Program-made: the position numbers and the translations under genes
Shown: one piece after another, positions 1 through 13,746 of the stretch
How positions within the stretch are numbered: position 1 is the first letter of the stretch
How the letters are laid out: each line of letters starts with the position of its first letter
Notes under the pieces: model-generated
What the model saw: only the letters and a program-made list of their open reading frames with translations
Database searches by the model: none
Told to the model about the DNA's origin: nothing
Source: a virus
Length of the DNA: 29,836 nt
IMG/VR virus record: IMGVR_UViG_3300007960_000119
Span: 1 to 29,836 of that record
Strand: one strand, 5' to 3'

Positions 1-795
1 TGGGTTTGTGATGTTCGCGGAAAGAACATTTACAGAATTGTAAGAAGATTTGGCAACTATCAACAACGACAACGTTGGTTGGAGTTGGACGGTAGACTTG
101 ATCTCGCAGACTTTGATAAAATATATAAAGAAGTAAACGAGATTGAAGAAGAACCAACATGTGATTTACCACCAGAAATGATCTCACTTTGTAACAAGCA
201 TCTTCCTCGTTCTTCTGAAAGGGCTCTTGACTATCTACACTCTCGAGGTATTGACGATTACCAAATAAAGTTATGGAAGATTGGTTATTGCACCGAGGGA
301 AGATATTCAGGCAGAATTATTATTCCATCTTTCAACCAAAATGGAGATCCAAATTTCTTTATTGCTCGTTCTTATGTCGGACACAGAATGAAATACCTCA
401 ACCCAAGAACCACAAAGGACATAATTTTCAACGAACTAATGATTGATTGGGATGAGCCCGTTGTAATTGTTGAAGGAGCCTTTGATGCTATTGTCGCAGG
501 AACACAAGGCATTCCTATTCTTGGTTCAACCCTTAGACCAGAGTCTCGCTTATTTCAAGCTCTTGCAATAAACGACACACCAGTTTACATAGGACTTGAC
601 CAAGATGCGGAGAAGAAAGCATCGTGGATGATTAAGAAGATGATTGAATACGACATGGAAGTCTATAAAATAGACACTACAGCCGTTGAAGACATTGGGT
701 CTATGACACCACGACAATTCGAGAACGCAAAAGATAGGGCTCAACCAATAGACCCCGACTATTTCTTTTTTGACAAACTATTAAACGCTATCTAA
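1..795 (+). CDS. DNA primase, DnaG-type with Toprim domain (5' end missing)
   Basis: The reading frame is open from base 1, so the gene begins upstream; 264 residues are visible. The first residues (WVCDVRGKNIYRIVRRFG) look like the end of a CHC2-type zinc ribbon, where a Cys precedes a basic G-K stretch. A Toprim core follows: VVIVEGAFDA, with the catalytic Glu at visible residue 158, and GLDQDAEKKA, with acidic residues at about 200 and 202. In this family the Toprim fold binds Mg2+ and makes RNA primers for lagging-strand synthesis beside the replicative helicase. The central segment (GRIIIPSFNQNGDPNFFIARS) fits the N-terminal half of a primase catalytic core. A nuclease or topoisomerase Toprim protein is less likely because of the zinc-ribbon remnant. 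The next gene starts 27 bp downstream. Confidence 0.85.
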   Translation, partial: WVCDVRGKNIYRIVRRFGNYQQRQRWLELDGRLDLADFDKIYKEVNEIEEEPTCDLPPEMISLCNKHLPRSSERALDYLHSRGIDDYQIKLWKIGYCTEGRYSGRIIIPSFNQNGDPNFFIARSYVGHRMKYLNPRTTKDIIFNELMIDWDEPVVIVEGAFDAIVAGTQGIPILGSTLRPESRLFQALAINDTPVYIGLDQDAEKKASWMIKKMIEYDMEVYKIDTTAVEDIGSMTPRQFENAKDRAQPIDPDYFFFDKLLNAI

Positions 796-822
796 CTATT
801 TATTTGTAAAGGAGATTTTGCT

Positions 823-888
823 ATGAAAATAACAAACGCACAACTAAAACAAATAATCAAAGAAGAACTTAATAAAGTCTTAAAAGAA
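823..888 (+). repeat. Tag-coding dispersed repeat, copy 1
   Basis: The first 57 bp differ at only four positions from the copy at 4581, although the two proteins share nothing after residue 22. Confidence 0.7.
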
Positions 889-1302
889 TCCTATTCAGGA
901 GAATACTTTCGTCCTGCCGAGTTTGACCCAAGAGCAAAAAAGAATTACCCACAACATTCTGATAAACTAACAGACATGTATAAAGATGATCCGGCCCAAG
1001 CTATGTCTTTGGCTAGTGCACTGGAAGAACCACTTGATATCGAAGTAGGTGAAAACGAAAACAGTATGTATGGTGGTCCGTTTTTGAAGCGCCTTATAGG
1101 ACAACCCAGACACAACTATGAACCAATTTATAGACACTTTCGTTCTTGGGTTTATGATAATTATAGAGGTAGAACTGGTGATGAATCTTTTAGTAACGAA
1201 AACATCTTAAACCATTATGAACAAGTACATGGAAAACAAAAAGCTGATATTGTAAGAACTTATAATACAATGGAAACTTTTAAAAAGTACATCAATAAAT
1301 AA
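823..1302 (+). CDS. Tagged protein of unknown function (capsid-targeting-like N-terminus)
   Basis: 159 residues. Residues 1-22 are the recurrent basic tag (MKITNAQLKQIIKEEL, then NKVLKE) with a candidate prohead-protease site after LKE22. The body (SYSGEYFRP...) is soluble and polar, with no recognised domain, membrane segment or signal peptide; it has an Arg/Tyr-rich stretch near residues 95-120 (RHNYEPIYRHFRSWVYDNYRGR). The start is set by AAAGGAG 8 bp upstream. It lies between primase and the SbcDC-like gene. From the tag I infer an internal virion protein matured to about 137 residues; the molecular function is unknown. Confidence 0.75.
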   Translation: MKITNAQLKQIIKEELNKVLKESYSGEYFRPAEFDPRAKKNYPQHSDKLTDMYKDDPAQAMSLASALEEPLDIEVGENENSMYGGPFLKRLIGQPRHNYEPIYRHFRSWVYDNYRGRTGDESFSNENILNHYEQVHGKQKADIVRTYNTMETFKKYINK

Positions 1303-1309
1303 AAAAAAC

Positions 1310-1338
1310 TTGACAAATCCTCCGTAATGTGTTATAAT
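1310..1338 (+). promoter_or_regulatory. Consensus sigma-70 promoter upstream of the SbcDC-like gene
   Basis: TTGACA at 1310-1315 and TATAAT at 1333-1338 are separated by exactly 17 bp, a perfect match in both boxes and spacing. A transcript from here would start near 1345 and give a leader of about 20 nt carrying only the SD arm of the overlapping inverted repeat. A match this good suggests use by unmodified host RNA polymerase, probably early in infection. Confidence 0.85.
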
Positions 1339-1359
1339 AAAAACACTTAATTACGGAGG
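1319..1359 (+). promoter_or_regulatory. Inverted repeat that can mask the ribosome binding site of the SbcDC-like gene
   Basis: The arms CCTCCGTAAT (1319-1328) and ATTACGGAGG (1350-1359) are perfect 10-bp complements. An inner GTGT/ACAC stem (1329-1332 with 1343-1346) leaves TATAATAAAA as the loop. The 3' arm contains the GGAGG Shine-Dalgarno of the gene starting at 1364. On mRNA reading in from upstream the hairpin would hide the SD; mRNA from the promoter whose -10 box is in the loop lacks the 5' arm. This is the layout known for T4 gene e and soc. A protein operator is an alternative. Confidence 0.7.
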
Positions 1360-1363
1360 ATTT

Positions 1364-4300
1364 ATGATTAAGAAACCACTTCGTCTGGCGCACTTCGCTG
1401 ACACCCACATCCGGAATCTAAAATTTCATGATGAATACAGATTTGTATTCAATCAAATTTATAAAAAACTATTATCACAAAAACCAGATTATATAATTCA
1501 TTGTGGGGATCTGGCTCACACCAAAACTCAATTGTCACCAGAGTATTTTGCTCTGGCCTCTGAGTTTTTAAAAAACCTAGCTGACATAGCACCAACCTAC
1601 ATTATTCTTGGAAACCATGACGGTAATCTAAAGAACTCTGATAGGGAAGATGCTGTGTCTCCCATAGTTAATGCCCTAAACCATCCACAATTGCATTTGC
1701 TAAAGAATTCTGGTCGTGTATCTCCACAACCTGGTTTGTCTTTCAACGTTCTTTCAATCTTTGACAGAGACGGTTGGATGCGACCAAAGACCGGAGACAT
1801 AAACATTGCTCTTTATCATGGTGCTGTTATGGGTTCAAGAACAGGTTCAGGTTGGGCTATGGAACACGGAGACGACGACATAAGCATTTTCAAAGACCAC
1901 GACTTTGTTATGCTTGGAGATATTCATAAGCCTCAAATCTTAGATACAGAAGGTCGTGTCCAATATGCTGGTTCGACAATTCAACAGAACTTTTCAGAAG
2001 ATGGACGCAAAGGTTATAAGCTATGGACAATAAGATCTAAAGATGACTTTGATTGTCAGCATGTAATCTTTACAAATCCTCGACCATTTATCACAGTAGA
2101 CCTAGACCAAAAGGGTGGCATCCCTCAACACATTCATGTGCCTCACGGTTGCCGTCTAAGATTAATCTCGACAACAAATTTAGATAGTGCTACAATCCGC
2201 AAGATTACCGATTTAGCACGTTCTAAGTATAACCCTATCTCTTTGACCTTTTTAAACAAAGGCACCTCTCAATTCACAACCTCGGGCGGAGAAGAGCATA
2301 AAATGGAGAACATGCGTGATGCTTCCATTCAAGAACAGTATATTCGAGATTATTTAAAAGATTATGACTTAGAAGAAGACTTGATGCGTCAAGTGCTTGA
2401 ATTAAATACTAAATACAATATAGAGGTTGAGAAGAATGAAGAAGTCCGAAGAAACGTCAAATGGAATATTAAAGAGATGGAGTTCTCAAATCTTTTCAAT
2501 TATGGACAAGGGAATAGAATGGATTTTGATAATCTTTCTGGAACTGTTGGCATTTTTGGGAAGAACTACAGTGGGAAGTCTTCTGTTATTGATTCTGCTC
2601 TTTATGGCATTTTTGGCGGAACCTCCAAGTCCGAAAAGAAAAACGTTCACCTCGTCAATCAAAACAAAGACAAAGCCTCTATTAGAATGGTTGTGGAAGC
2701 AGATGGTCAAGAGTATCAAATTACTCGCAATCTTAATAAATCTTATAAGACCGTCAAAGGAAAGTCCGTCGCTACTGCCTCTGGTGATCTTGATTTCCAT
2801 AATCTCACTACCGATTCTTCGTGCAATGGGGATTCTGTAAAAGACACTGAGGCTAACATAAGAAAGATCTTTGGTGCAATTGAAGACTTTATGATAACCT
2901 CAATGGCTTCTCAAATGGATTCTCTTTCTTTTATAAACGAAGGCTCAACCAAGCGTAAGAATACACTTGCAAAATTTCTTGATTTGGATATCTTCGAACA
3001 AAAGTTAAATTTTGCAAAGAAAGATTCTTCCGAGATTTCTGCCCTAATCAAACGTCTCAAAGGAAAGAAGCTTGGAGAACTATTGGTTGCAAAGCAAGAA
3101 GAAGTTGAGGAGATTAATGATGATATAGACCAACAAACAGATTTATGCAAAAAGCATACCAATCGTTATGAAGAGTTGTTAAAAGAATTAGCAGACATAG
3201 AACAAGAAATCAACTCTATTCCTCAACAAATTATTGACATTGATGAGTTAGAAGATGAAGTTGATAGACTTGAAGTCGAGATTCACAAAGCAGGTGTCAA
3301 GGTCTCTGGTAACAAAATCACAATAAAAGAAAACCTATTAGTAATCGAACAAGCAGATATTACTGTAAGCTCCATAAATGAACACAGACTTGCGCAAATA
3401 ATAGAGCAGTGTAGTGACTATGAAAAGACTTTAAAAGGCTATCAAAAGGAACTAGAGGCTCTTAAAACAAAAGAAAAACAATCCATTAAGAAGATAAGCA
3501 TGCTTCATGATCACGAGTATGATCCAAACTGCCAATTCTGTTCCAACAATAAATTTGTCAAAGATGCAACAAAAGCAAAAGATTATCTACCAACCCTTGA
3601 ACAAGAAATTGAAGAGGTCGAGAAAATAATTGATGGTTATAAGTTAAAAATCTTTGGTCTTGACAAAGAGTCAGCTCAAAAAGAATTGCAAGTTCTTGAT
3701 GATAATGTAAAGAAAAGAGATAAGTTTATTCAAATAAACAAAAACTTGGAGATAACAAACGAGTCTCTTGTGTCAAAAATCTCTCTTATGTGTAATCAAA
3801 AAGCTTCTCTCGAACAACAACGAGACGAATATAACCAAAACCGTCAAGCAATTGAGAATCTTTCTTCTCTTGTTAAAACAAAGAACGCTGTAAAACTAAA
3901 AATGAACGAAGCAAAAGAACGCAAGGAAAAGTGCGACAAGAAAATTCAAGACCTTCTTATTGAGCTTGGAGCTGTTAAAAGCACCATCAAGCGTTTAAAT
4001 GTCGAAAAGAAAGAACAGGATGATCTCGAAGAATCTTTCATAGCTTATGAATTGTTTATGCGCTGTATGCATCCAAATGGAATTGCTTACGAAATTATCA
4101 AACAAAAGTTAGCTCTTATCAATGAGGAAATTCATAAATGTCTTGCAAACATTGTTGACTTTCAAGTTATGTTTGAGGAAGATGGAAACAATTTGGATAT
4201 AAACATAAAGCATCCGAAGTATGATTCTCGACCTATCTCTATGGGCTCAGGCGCTGAAAAGACCATAGCTGCTATGGCCATTCGTCTTGCTCTTATTGAG

Positions 4301-4516
4301 ATAACGAACTTACCTAAGTCTACTTTGTTTATTATGGACGAACCTGCTACGGCATTAGACCAAGAACACATGGAAGGTTTTGTTCGTTTAATTGATATGA
4401 TAAAAGATAAGTTTAAAACTGTCTTGTTAATCTCTCACCTTGATGTTCTAAAAGACTGTGTTGATAAAACCATAGACATACAAAAAGTTGGTGGTTATGC
4501 TAAAGTGAACTGCTAA
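1364..4516 (+). CDS. Fused Mre11/Rad50-type recombination nuclease (SbcD-SbcC, gp47-gp46 equivalent)
   Basis: 1050 residues. The N-terminal third is an Mre11/SbcD metallophosphoesterase: DTH at 13-15, CGDLAH at 47-52, GNHD at 83-86, YHG, and GDIHKP. From about residue 372 it is an SbcC/Rad50 ATPase: a Walker A loop GKNYSGKSS near 399-407, a long Glu/Lys-rich coiled coil, a zinc-hook CQFC at 723-726, the second coiled coil, an ABC signature MGSGAEK near 960, a Walker B FIMDEPATALD and an H-loop ISH. The family resects and processes DNA ends for recombination-dependent replication. T4 and most bacteria use two genes; one polypeptide here is unusual. There is no internal start region with an SD at the junction. 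It has its own promoter, and a hairpin followed by a T-run lies just downstream. Confidence 0.93.
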   Translation: MIKKPLRLAHFADTHIRNLKFHDEYRFVFNQIYKKLLSQKPDYIIHCGDLAHTKTQLSPEYFALASEFLKNLADIAPTYIILGNHDGNLKNSDREDAVSPIVNALNHPQLHLLKNSGRVSPQPGLSFNVLSIFDRDGWMRPKTGDINIALYHGAVMGSRTGSGWAMEHGDDDISIFKDHDFVMLGDIHKPQILDTEGRVQYAGSTIQQNFSEDGRKGYKLWTIRSKDDFDCQHVIFTNPRPFITVDLDQKGGIPQHIHVPHGCRLRLISTTNLDSATIRKITDLARSKYNPISLTFLNKGTSQFTTSGGEEHKMENMRDASIQEQYIRDYLKDYDLEEDLMRQVLELNTKYNIEVEKNEEVRRNVKWNIKEMEFSNLFNYGQGNRMDFDNLSGTVGIFGKNYSGKSSVIDSALYGIFGGTSKSEKKNVHLVNQNKDKASIRMVVEADGQEYQITRNLNKSYKTVKGKSVATASGDLDFHNLTTDSSCNGDSVKDTEANIRKIFGAIEDFMITSMASQMDSLSFINEGSTKRKNTLAKFLDLDIFEQKLNFAKKDSSEISALIKRLKGKKLGELLVAKQEEVEEINDDIDQQTDLCKKHTNRYEELLKELADIEQEINSIPQQIIDIDELEDEVDRLEVEIHKAGVKVSGNKITIKENLLVIEQADITVSSINEHRLAQIIEQCSDYEKTLKGYQKELEALKTKEKQSIKKISMLHDHEYDPNCQFCSNNKFVKDATKAKDYLPTLEQEIEEVEKIIDGYKLKIFGLDKESAQKELQVLDDNVKKRDKFIQINKNLEITNESLVSKISLMCNQKASLEQQRDEYNQNRQAIENLSSLVKTKNAVKLKMNEAKERKEKCDKKIQDLLIELGAVKSTIKRLNVEKKEQDDLEESFIAYELFMRCMHPNGIAYEIIKQKLALINEEIHKCLANIVDFQVMFEEDGNNLDINIKHPKYDSRPISMGSGAEKTIAAMAIRLALIEITNLPKSTLFIMDEPATALDQEHMEGFVRLIDMIKDKFKTVLLISHLDVLKDCVDKTIDIQKVGGYAKVNC

Positions 4517-11726: not shown

Positions 11727-11755
11727 TTGACATTAGCTTTACTTTATGTTATAAT
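11727..11755 (+). promoter_or_regulatory. Consensus sigma-70 promoter upstream of the portal gene
   Basis: TTGACA at 11727-11732 and TATAAT at 11750-11755 with a 17-bp spacer, beginning one base after the TerL stop. The transcript would start near 11762 and begin the portal unit with a leader of about 23 nt; SD AAAAGGA is at 11772-11778. A host-type promoter in front of a head gene is notable, since T4 head genes use a late promoter read by a phage sigma factor. Confidence 0.85.
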
Positions 11756-11784
11756 AGAACTATTTACTACGAAAAGGATTAGCT

Positions 11785-13746
11785 ATGCCCAAATACAAAA
11801 AGTCGCCTTACAATCCTCAATCGGATCTATTCAAGGCTCTTACAAAATTGTTTTCTGGACCGATAACCCAGAGAAGAACACAAACAGGTCGTCAATTACG
11901 AAGACGGCAATTGGACAACTATGCTACAAAGTTTCAATCAGCATCGGGCGCTCAGTTTAAAAAATGGGAATACAACCCAATAAACTCTGTTACTCTTAAC
12001 ATGATTTCAAACAGAAACAGAGCAGAGCGTTATGTTGACTTTGATGAAATGGAATATATGCCAGAAATAGCATCGTCCTTAGACATTTATGCTGATGAAA
12101 TGACAACTCATACAGCTCTTCGTCCAATGCTAAATATCAAATGTGCTAACGAAGAAATAAAACACATCCTCCATAATTTATATCATAATGTTCTTAACAT
12201 TGAGCACAACCTTTTTGGTTGGGCAAGAACAATGTGTAAATACGGTGACTTCTTTCTTTATCTTGATATTGATGAAGATATGGGAATTCGATCTGCTATT
12301 GGTCTTCCAACAAGAGAGATTGAACGTCTTGAAGGAGAAGATCAAGGAAATCCAAACTACGTTCAATACCAATGGAACACAGCTGGACTAACTCTGGAGA
12401 ATTGGCAAGTTGCTCACTTTAGAATTCTTGGTAATGATAAGCATGCTCCTTATGGAACATCAGTTCTTGAACCTGCAAGACGAATCCATCGTCAACTTAT
12501 TCTTTTAGAAGATGCTATGATGGCTTATCGTATTGTTCGTGCTCCTGAGCGTCGGTTGTTTAAGATTGACGTTGGTGGTATTCCTCCACAAGAAGTTGAA
12601 CAATACATGCAAAAAGTTATGACCCAATTGAAACGACATTCTGTTGTTGACCCAACAACCGGTCGTGTTGATTTACGTTACAACCCTTTGTCAATTGAAG
12701 AAGATTATTATATTCCAATTCGTGGAGGTCAATCTTCAACAGACATTACCTCGCTTCCTGGCGCTTCCTATAATGGTGGTATTGATGATGTTAAGTATCT
12801 TAGAGATAAGTTATTTGCTGCTTTAAAGATTCCCCAATCTTATTTAACAATGGGTGAAGGTGCCTCTGAGGATAAAACCACATTGGCTCAAAAAGATATT
12901 CGTTTCGCCAGAACTATTCAAAGATTACAACGTGTAGCAATAGCAGAGCTAGAAAAGATTGGAATCATTCATCTTTATACTCTTGGTTATAGAAATGATG
13001 ACCTATTAGCTTTCACACTTCAACTAAACAACCCATCAAAGATTGCTGAGCTTCAAGAACTTGAACACTGGGATAAAAAATTCTCTGTTGCTGGAAATGC
13101 AACAGAAGGATATTTCTCAAAACGCTGGATTGCGGAACACCTTTTCGGAATGTCAGAAGATGAATTTCTTCGTAACCAAAGAGAAATGTTCTTTGATAAA
13201 AAGTTCATGGCTAAACTTGAAGCTGCCGCATCTGGTGGAGAAGGTGGTGAAGACGCTGGTGGAGGAGGCGGTCTTGCCGGAGGTCTTGGAGACCTAGGCG
13301 GTGGCAGTGGAGACCTTGGAGGTGACCTAGGCGGTGGAGGTGAAGATTTAGGAGGTGACTTAGGTGACCTCGGCGGTGGAGACACCGGTGGAGGAGATGT
13401 CGGCGGCGACAAAGGGGGTGATACCGATCTGCTCGCCGAACCCTCTGCGAAACGTGATGACTCGCCTCCGTATGTCGATATTCCATCTAAACGTGGTCCA
13501 TACAAATCGCACCAATCTTCCTATGATAAAGGCGGCATGAAGAAATCCATGCTTGGCTCAACAGGAATCGAAACCTCTCGGTCAACATCTCGCAACCTTT
13601 ATAAAGGCTATGTTGGAAATGAATACTCACTATCTCAAGCAGCTGGTGGCTACTTAGAAGAAGAACAAAAATTAGAATCAGTATCTCGCGAAGTTGAGAT
13701 GCTTATTGAATCTCTAAACAAAAAGGAAATTAAAGATGAAACATAA
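11785..13746 (+). CDS. Portal protein (T4 gp20-like)
   Basis: 653 residues. The N-terminus is basic (MPKYKKSPYNPQSD...RQLRRRQ). The conserved portal core follows: RYVDFDEMEYMPEIASSLDIYADE, IEHNLFGWARTMCKYGDFFLYLDID, a wing/stem region with YGTSVLEPARR and MMAYRIVRAPERRLFKIDVGG, and LFAALKIPQSYLTMGEGASEDKTTLAQKDIRFARTI. Twelve copies should form the ring at the special head vertex through which TerL packages DNA. Residues about 483-547 are a Gly/Asp-rich low-complexity segment, followed by a polar tail (SAKRDDSPPYVDIPSKRGPYK). SD and start at 11772-11785 follow its own promoter. The last 11 bp overlap the next gene. Confidence 0.93.
   Translation: MPKYKKSPYNPQSDLFKALTKLFSGPITQRRTQTGRQLRRRQLDNYATKFQSASGAQFKKWEYNPINSVTLNMISNRNRAERYVDFDEMEYMPEIASSLDIYADEMTTHTALRPMLNIKCANEEIKHILHNLYHNVLNIEHNLFGWARTMCKYGDFFLYLDIDEDMGIRSAIGLPTREIERLEGEDQGNPNYVQYQWNTAGLTLENWQVAHFRILGNDKHAPYGTSVLEPARRIHRQLILLEDAMMAYRIVRAPERRLFKIDVGGIPPQEVEQYMQKVMTQLKRHSVVDPTTGRVDLRYNPLSIEEDYYIPIRGGQSSTDITSLPGASYNGGIDDVKYLRDKLFAALKIPQSYLTMGEGASEDKTTLAQKDIRFARTIQRLQRVAIAELEKIGIIHLYTLGYRNDDLLAFTLQLNNPSKIAELQELEHWDKKFSVAGNATEGYFSKRWIAEHLFGMSEDEFLRNQREMFFDKKFMAKLEAAASGGEGGEDAGGGGGLAGGLGDLGGGSGDLGGDLGGGGEDLGGDLGDLGGGDTGGGDVGGDKGGDTDLLAEPSAKRDDSPPYVDIPSKRGPYKSHQSSYDKGGMKKSMLGSTGIETSRSTSRNLYKGYVGNEYSLSQAAGGYLEEEQKLESVSREVEMLIESLNKKEIKDET
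13231..13425 (+). repeat. Gly/Asp-rich low-complexity repeat in the portal gene
   Basis: About 65 codons of degenerate GGxxGDLGG units (GGGSGDLGG, DLGGGGEDLGG, DLGDLGGG), with markedly higher G+C than its surroundings. It encodes a flexible acidic segment between the portal core and its tail. The opposite strand has a long Pro-rich open frame here only as a by-product. Confidence 0.8.

Follow-up and report, generated by a model that had tools for sequence, protein, structure and literature searches.

The promoter and inverted repeat upstream of sbcDC

The window analysed here, the whole stretch of 29,836 nt (positions 1 to 29,836 of IMG/VR record IMGVR_UViG_3300007960_000119, one strand), opens with part of a DNA primase gene, followed by a small cargo ORF and by sbcDC, which encodes a fusion nuclease with an N-terminal SbcD-type phosphoesterase domain and then an SbcC-type ATPase (Table 1). 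We take this fusion to unite in one chain the domain types of T4 gp47 and gp46. Several hundred viral contigs encode relatives of the SbcD-type part, and the full-length fusion was present in the complete ones of one protein search. The portal gene at 11785 is of the T4 type (Portal_T4, E 3e-77), and the phage is therefore a distant T4-like myovirus. A DNA search with the 1.5 kb around the site against named phages gave no match.

Table 1. Features at the start of the window, from the primase gene to sbcDC.
Feature	Position	Strand	Basis
DNA primase, C-terminal part, 5' end outside the window	1..795	+	PHROG 47, E 2e-30
CTATTTATT, putative late promoter of the cargo ORF and putative source of read-through RNA	796..804	+	CTATTTA enrichment
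Cargo ORF, 159 aa, N-terminus MKITNAQLKQIIKEEL, no known family	823..1302	+	ORF call, profile searches
Sigma-70 promoter TTGACA-N17-TATAAT, extended TG	1310..1338	+	12/12 consensus match
Hairpin 5' arm (anti-SD), within the promoter spacer	1315..1328	+	inverted repeat, fold, conservation
Inner stem GTGTT (1329-1333) / AACAC (1342-1346), 8-nt loop	1329..1346	+	fold
Hairpin 3' arm, holding the SD GGAGG (1355-1359)	1350..1363	+	inverted repeat, fold
SbcD-SbcC fusion nuclease gene, 1050 aa, controlled gene	1364..4516	+	Pfam Metallophos 6-190, AAA_23 375-611; PHROG 77

The sbcDC promoter, with its -35 box at 1310-1315, a 17-nt spacer and its -10 box at 1333-1338, is one of two perfect sigma-70 promoters in the whole window, where 0.06 would be expected; from the promoter spacing, local transcription would start at about 1345. 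The initial annotation had described this host-type consensus promoter as lying inside a hairpin, with 10-bp arms (1319-1328 and 1350-1359) around the -10 box and with the 3' arm serving as the SD, and we found all of these elements in place. The repeat is in fact longer than the ten pairs reported, since 14/14 bp match between arms that are 21 nt apart, and 4 nt separate the SD in the 3' arm from the ATG. No other perfect inverted repeat in the window reaches 14 bp with a loop of at most 40 nt, and none of equal length and spacing appeared in 12 order-1 Markov simulations of the window. No terminator was predicted on the coding strand at the hairpin, and a role as terminator was rejected for this reason.

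Predicted folding and conservation of the hairpin

The RNA from 1303 to 1420 folds with a predicted energy of -32.5 kcal/mol (z = -5.9), a value that no shuffle equalled, whereas an RNA beginning at 1345 has a z of about 0 against shuffles. Opening the region from SD to AUG would cost 18.2 kcal/mol in the read-through RNA of the window and 4.0 kcal/mol in the predicted local RNA, and the predicted exposure of the SD in the read-through RNA is 0.00 at 15, 25 and 37 °C. A second, weaker stem (1346-1353 with 1365-1372) is predicted in the local RNA and leaves the SD 0.2-0.5 open. It places the SD in the loop and codons 1-3 in the stem; relatives pair similarly but with different sequences (ATAAGT with ACTTAT). 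The earlier proposal that the read-through message is silent and the local one open therefore agrees with the prediction of a closed and a more open form, but in the window the SD of the local RNA would be only partly open; in most near-clade relatives it is predicted to be about 0.84 open.

In 13 promoter-bearing relatives the predicted opening cost was 3.1-13.7 kcal/mol for the read-through and 1.2-5.9 kcal/mol for the local RNA; some of these costs depend on the length folded, and folding less coding sequence brought the difference to near zero in two relatives. Eight relatives without a local promoter, in which sbcDC directly follows the upstream gene, have no hairpin and an open SD (1.8-3.8 kcal/mol).

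Upstream regions for comparison were gathered by protein searches and one DNA pattern search. Promoter and SD align clearly in 14 distinct near orthologues, and 13 distinct orthologous promoters were tested for an anti-SD helix, counted as significant when longer than in shuffles of the spacer (p<=0.05; the sequences are related, so these p-values are not independent). By this measure a helix was present at 11 of the 13 near promoters, at none of 34 promoter-bearing distant orthologues and at one of 38 other promoters of these phages. Pairing held in 86% of alignment cells versus 36-57% when slid; the helix is lost in one relative (L149) and weak in another (L142). The anti-SD arm, whose conservation in relatives had been suggested as a check, is thus kept, and the hairpin is a real, conserved feature. 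Two-sided covariation was not seen in the helix, because the SD fixes the 3' arm, and covariation was dropped as a proof of pairing.

Three relatives among the distant orthologues (L193, L198 and L209) have a strong duplex energy between the spacer or the -35 box and the SD, with p 0.03-0.07 by energy and not by helix length (UCUCCGU/ACGGAGA in L193, GACUUCC/GGAGGUC in L209); these pairings are possibly independent inventions.

The pattern of change in the arms bears on what the repeat is for. With its centre just past the -10 box, the perfect 14-bp dyad could act in the DNA as an operator, overlapping the promoter and the start region and bound by a repressor. The dyad is perfect in the window alone, however, with G.U or mismatched positions in all 13 others, in which the 5' arm drifts, the 3' arm stays and the spacing between the arms changes. 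Many of the changes in the 5' arm are C-to-U opposite a G of the SD, by which a G.U pair is kept in the RNA and the DNA symmetry is broken; this fits a function in RNA better than an operator. We rejected the operator, which we consider very improbable, because its symmetry is not conserved as DNA.

It is also conceivable that promoter recognition is what conserves the spacer and that its complementarity to the SD is a by-product or due to chance, given that the spacer ends (AA...GTG) are common to other promoters of the group. The best control, the portal promoters of the same genomes, which are of the same promoter type, argues against this: at the same positions, in the upstream half of the spacer, they drift and show no general pairing with the SD. 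Moreover, chance does not account for the match of 14/14 bp in the window, and we regard this explanation as improbable. We give hardly any credence to the idea that the hairpin, at an operon boundary, serves mainly in RNA processing or RNA stability, for instance as an RNase III site. Its position between two genes and its 14-bp stem, extended by an inner stem of 5 bp, would suit such a role, but relatives with 67% identity shorten the stem to 7-9 bp and keep the part that covers the SD.

The CTATTTA motif and the cargo genes

An unbiased count of 7-mers located 12-60 nt upstream of genes across the phage group identified CTATTTA as the most enriched (84 seen versus 3.0 expected), with a coding-strand bias, the next independent group being the sigma-70 promoter. 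CTATTTA precedes the baseplate wedge gene, the portal gene (which also has a sigma-70 promoter) and variable cargo ORFs, and sigma-70 promoters precede the genes for primase, a RuvC-like resolvase and GroEL as well as sbcDC. We regard CTATTTA as the probable phage-specific late promoter of the group. In the window it stands just upstream of genes at 796, 4532, 4549, 11760, 19434, 20077, 27940 and 28990. The cargo ORF begins 27 nt downstream of the copy at 796, and the stretch from 796 to 1310 contains no predicted terminator. In the portal leader (11727-11784) a perfect sigma-70 promoter and CTATTTA occur in tandem, an arrangement that suggests expression of the portal gene in both phases.

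A candidate for the corresponding sigma factor was found in four relatives (L292, L293, L294 and L295), in which an ORF of 232-233 aa (L292:1309-2010, L294:1258-1956) has a weak match to Sigma70_r2. Two of these ORFs were tested and matched the T4 gp55 family, PHROG 234, with E 4e-4 and 9e-4, T4 gp55 itself giving 3e-69 in the same run; a search for a late sigma with Sigma70_r4 gave no match. On these profile matches, we consider the ORF a candidate for a gp55-like late sigma in this group.

The cargo ORF between primase and sbcDC is absent from some relatives and in others is exchanged for unrelated ORFs with the same N-terminal tag. This tag, MKITNxQLKQIIKEEL, is carried by at least six otherwise unlike ORFs of the window (starts at 823, 4581, 5292, 5938, 6777 and 9396), and another tag, MSNDMKLIMESWR, is found repeatedly upstream of primase in relatives. 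By analogy with the internal proteins of T4, the tagged ORFs look like late cargo genes with a common targeting tag, perhaps for the capsid.

The promoter and the anti-SD arm are present in 8/8 contexts in which a cargo ORF separates primase from sbcDC (the window, L002, L006, L009, L015/L018, L016, L020 and L072), and neither promoter nor hairpin is found in five contexts where sbcDC directly follows primase (L003, L004, L007, L021 and L059). Six cargo-free contexts (L005, L008, L010, L011, L012 and L014) nevertheless retain the promoter with a helix of 4-9 bp, and late transcription of cargo is therefore not the sole reason for the device. Cargo accompanies the device and is not required for it; cargo as the sole driver of the hairpin is unsupported, as cargo-free genomes can retain it. 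GIY-YIG-like ORFs occur at this locus in two relatives: in L072 a GIY-YIG-like homing endonuclease ORF (3550-4341) directly follows the sbcDC promoter and first codons, and in L146 a GIY-YIG-like ORF is inserted just before sbcDC (upstream of 1501), with CTATTTA present and the sigma-70 promoter missing.

The cargo-free genomes bear on a further explanation, in which the same hairpin filter operates and timing is irrelevant, sbcDC being uncoupled from primase or any other upstream transcript so that its level is set by its own promoter, early or late. In five of them (L005, L008, L011, L012 and L014), which keep promoter and helix, the closest promoter upstream is the sigma-70 one in front of primase, as this explanation would have it. 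On the other hand, the longest helices, of 14 bp, occur in the window, L002 and L009, all of which bear cargo with CTATTTA just upstream, a coincidence that is confounded with clade. We consider uncoupling without timing unlikely, if a serious alternative.

A probable translational filter and its known relatives

The fold predictions and the conserved pairing make it likely that sbcDC is under a translational filter. The sigma-70 type of the local promoter and the probable late promoter upstream (CTATTTATT at 796) together point to late read-through RNA as the silent form, so that a reversed timing, in which the early local message is active and late read-through is silenced, is plausible. Early in infection, host RNA polymerase would start near 1345, and the local RNA, lacking the 5' arm, would be translated. 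Later, polymerase with the phage sigma would start near 796, cross the cargo gene and continue through 1315-1363; this run-in RNA would contain both arms, and the spacer arm would fold onto the SD and prevent translation of SbcD-SbcC. The run-in RNA would be mainly late, from the cargo CTATTTA promoter, to which the promoter of primase would add some early RNA. The recombination nuclease would in this way be made early from its own promoter. We infer the start site, the read-through, the timing and the strength of repression from the DNA; for the mechanism as a whole, with promoter in hairpin, silent and mainly late run-in RNA and early translation of the local sigma-70 RNA, we judge the chances to be somewhat better than even.

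Devices of this kind are known. In T4, an RBS hairpin of genes e (lysozyme), soc and 49 is bypassed by an internal late promoter (PMC3014915), and for these genes and I-TevI early run-through RNA is silent and the local late message active (PMC3014915, PMC2988022). As at T4 gene e, the SD here forms part of the 3' arm of a hairpin predicted to be stable in read-through RNA, and the promoter is placed such that its transcript, with a predicted start at about 1345, would lack the 5' arm; as at e, soc and 49, the setting would be one of long polycistronic phage transcripts. The long e transcript is strongly repressed in translation, about 100-fold. Unlike in T4, the local promoter is not of the late type (TATAAATA in T4) but a sigma-70 consensus, and the late-type CTATTTA is upstream; T4 late promoters delay late proteins, whereas here the product is an early-type recombination nuclease and the run-in promoter is probably the late one. 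The parallel with gene e drawn in the initial annotation therefore holds for the device, an SD hairpin with a bypassing promoter, and its direction is probably reversed. That the site works like T4 e stands even though the local promoter is not late, and the best reading is the known device type of T4 gene e with reversed polarity.

Hairpins of the same logic, whose arm adjoins a middle or late promoter, are found at the homing endonuclease genes I-TevI/II/III and segB of T4 and mobE of Aeh1 (PMC2988022). There, as here, the device accompanies genes inserted in foreign transcription units; in those systems, however, it is the inserted gene that bears the hairpin, and here it is the core gene downstream of the insert. 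The use of a sigma-70 promoter is closest to fold-back inhibition in IS10 and IS50. In these elements outside transcription yields a folded, silent transposase mRNA and their own sigma-70 promoter an open one; the arms form part of a transposon end and guard the element when it happens to land beside a promoter. At sbcDC, by contrast, the arms are not a transposon terminal repeat before a transposase, and the gene, which encodes SbcD-SbcC, lies in a block of phage replication genes.

Other promoters of the group gave a mixed picture. The opening-cost difference was 3.2-5.4 kcal/mol at the primase promoter (7/7 distinct promoters, p 0.03-0.11) and 5.3-6.8 kcal/mol at a glycosyltransferase gene (p 0.005-0.035); we treat both as a lead and not as a result. 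The MNWLEES gene showed a weak sign of pairing between spacer and SD, the GroEL/early cluster had no positive difference, and the portal had none consistently. A universal rule for all phage promoters was rejected, since the spacers of the portal and of the GroEL/early cluster do not consistently pair with the SD. The only other promoter to pass the shuffle test, at the baseplate wedge gene (L101:14337), is a weak sigma-70 match beside CTATTTA, and the two orthologues found have no similar sigma-70 promoter at this place. A narrower, group-wide rule, by which early sigma-70 genes that follow late cargo or virion genes have a spacer anti-SD as a T4 e switch of reversed polarity, is a tentative proposal that we think will more probably fail than hold; it would apply strongly to sbcDC and weakly to primase, the glycosyltransferase and MNWLEES. 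Were it true, late run-through RNA would go untranslated across the group, and core early genes could accept late cargo in their midst and keep their timing.

At sbcDC itself the filter, if it operates as proposed, would prevent renewed synthesis of an early recombination nuclease while late transcription is under way, unlike the delay of late genes in T4. An anti-SD sequence in a promoter spacer is a rule for which other phages can be scanned, and the device may explain how late cargo comes to be inserted between core replication genes without upsetting their timing.
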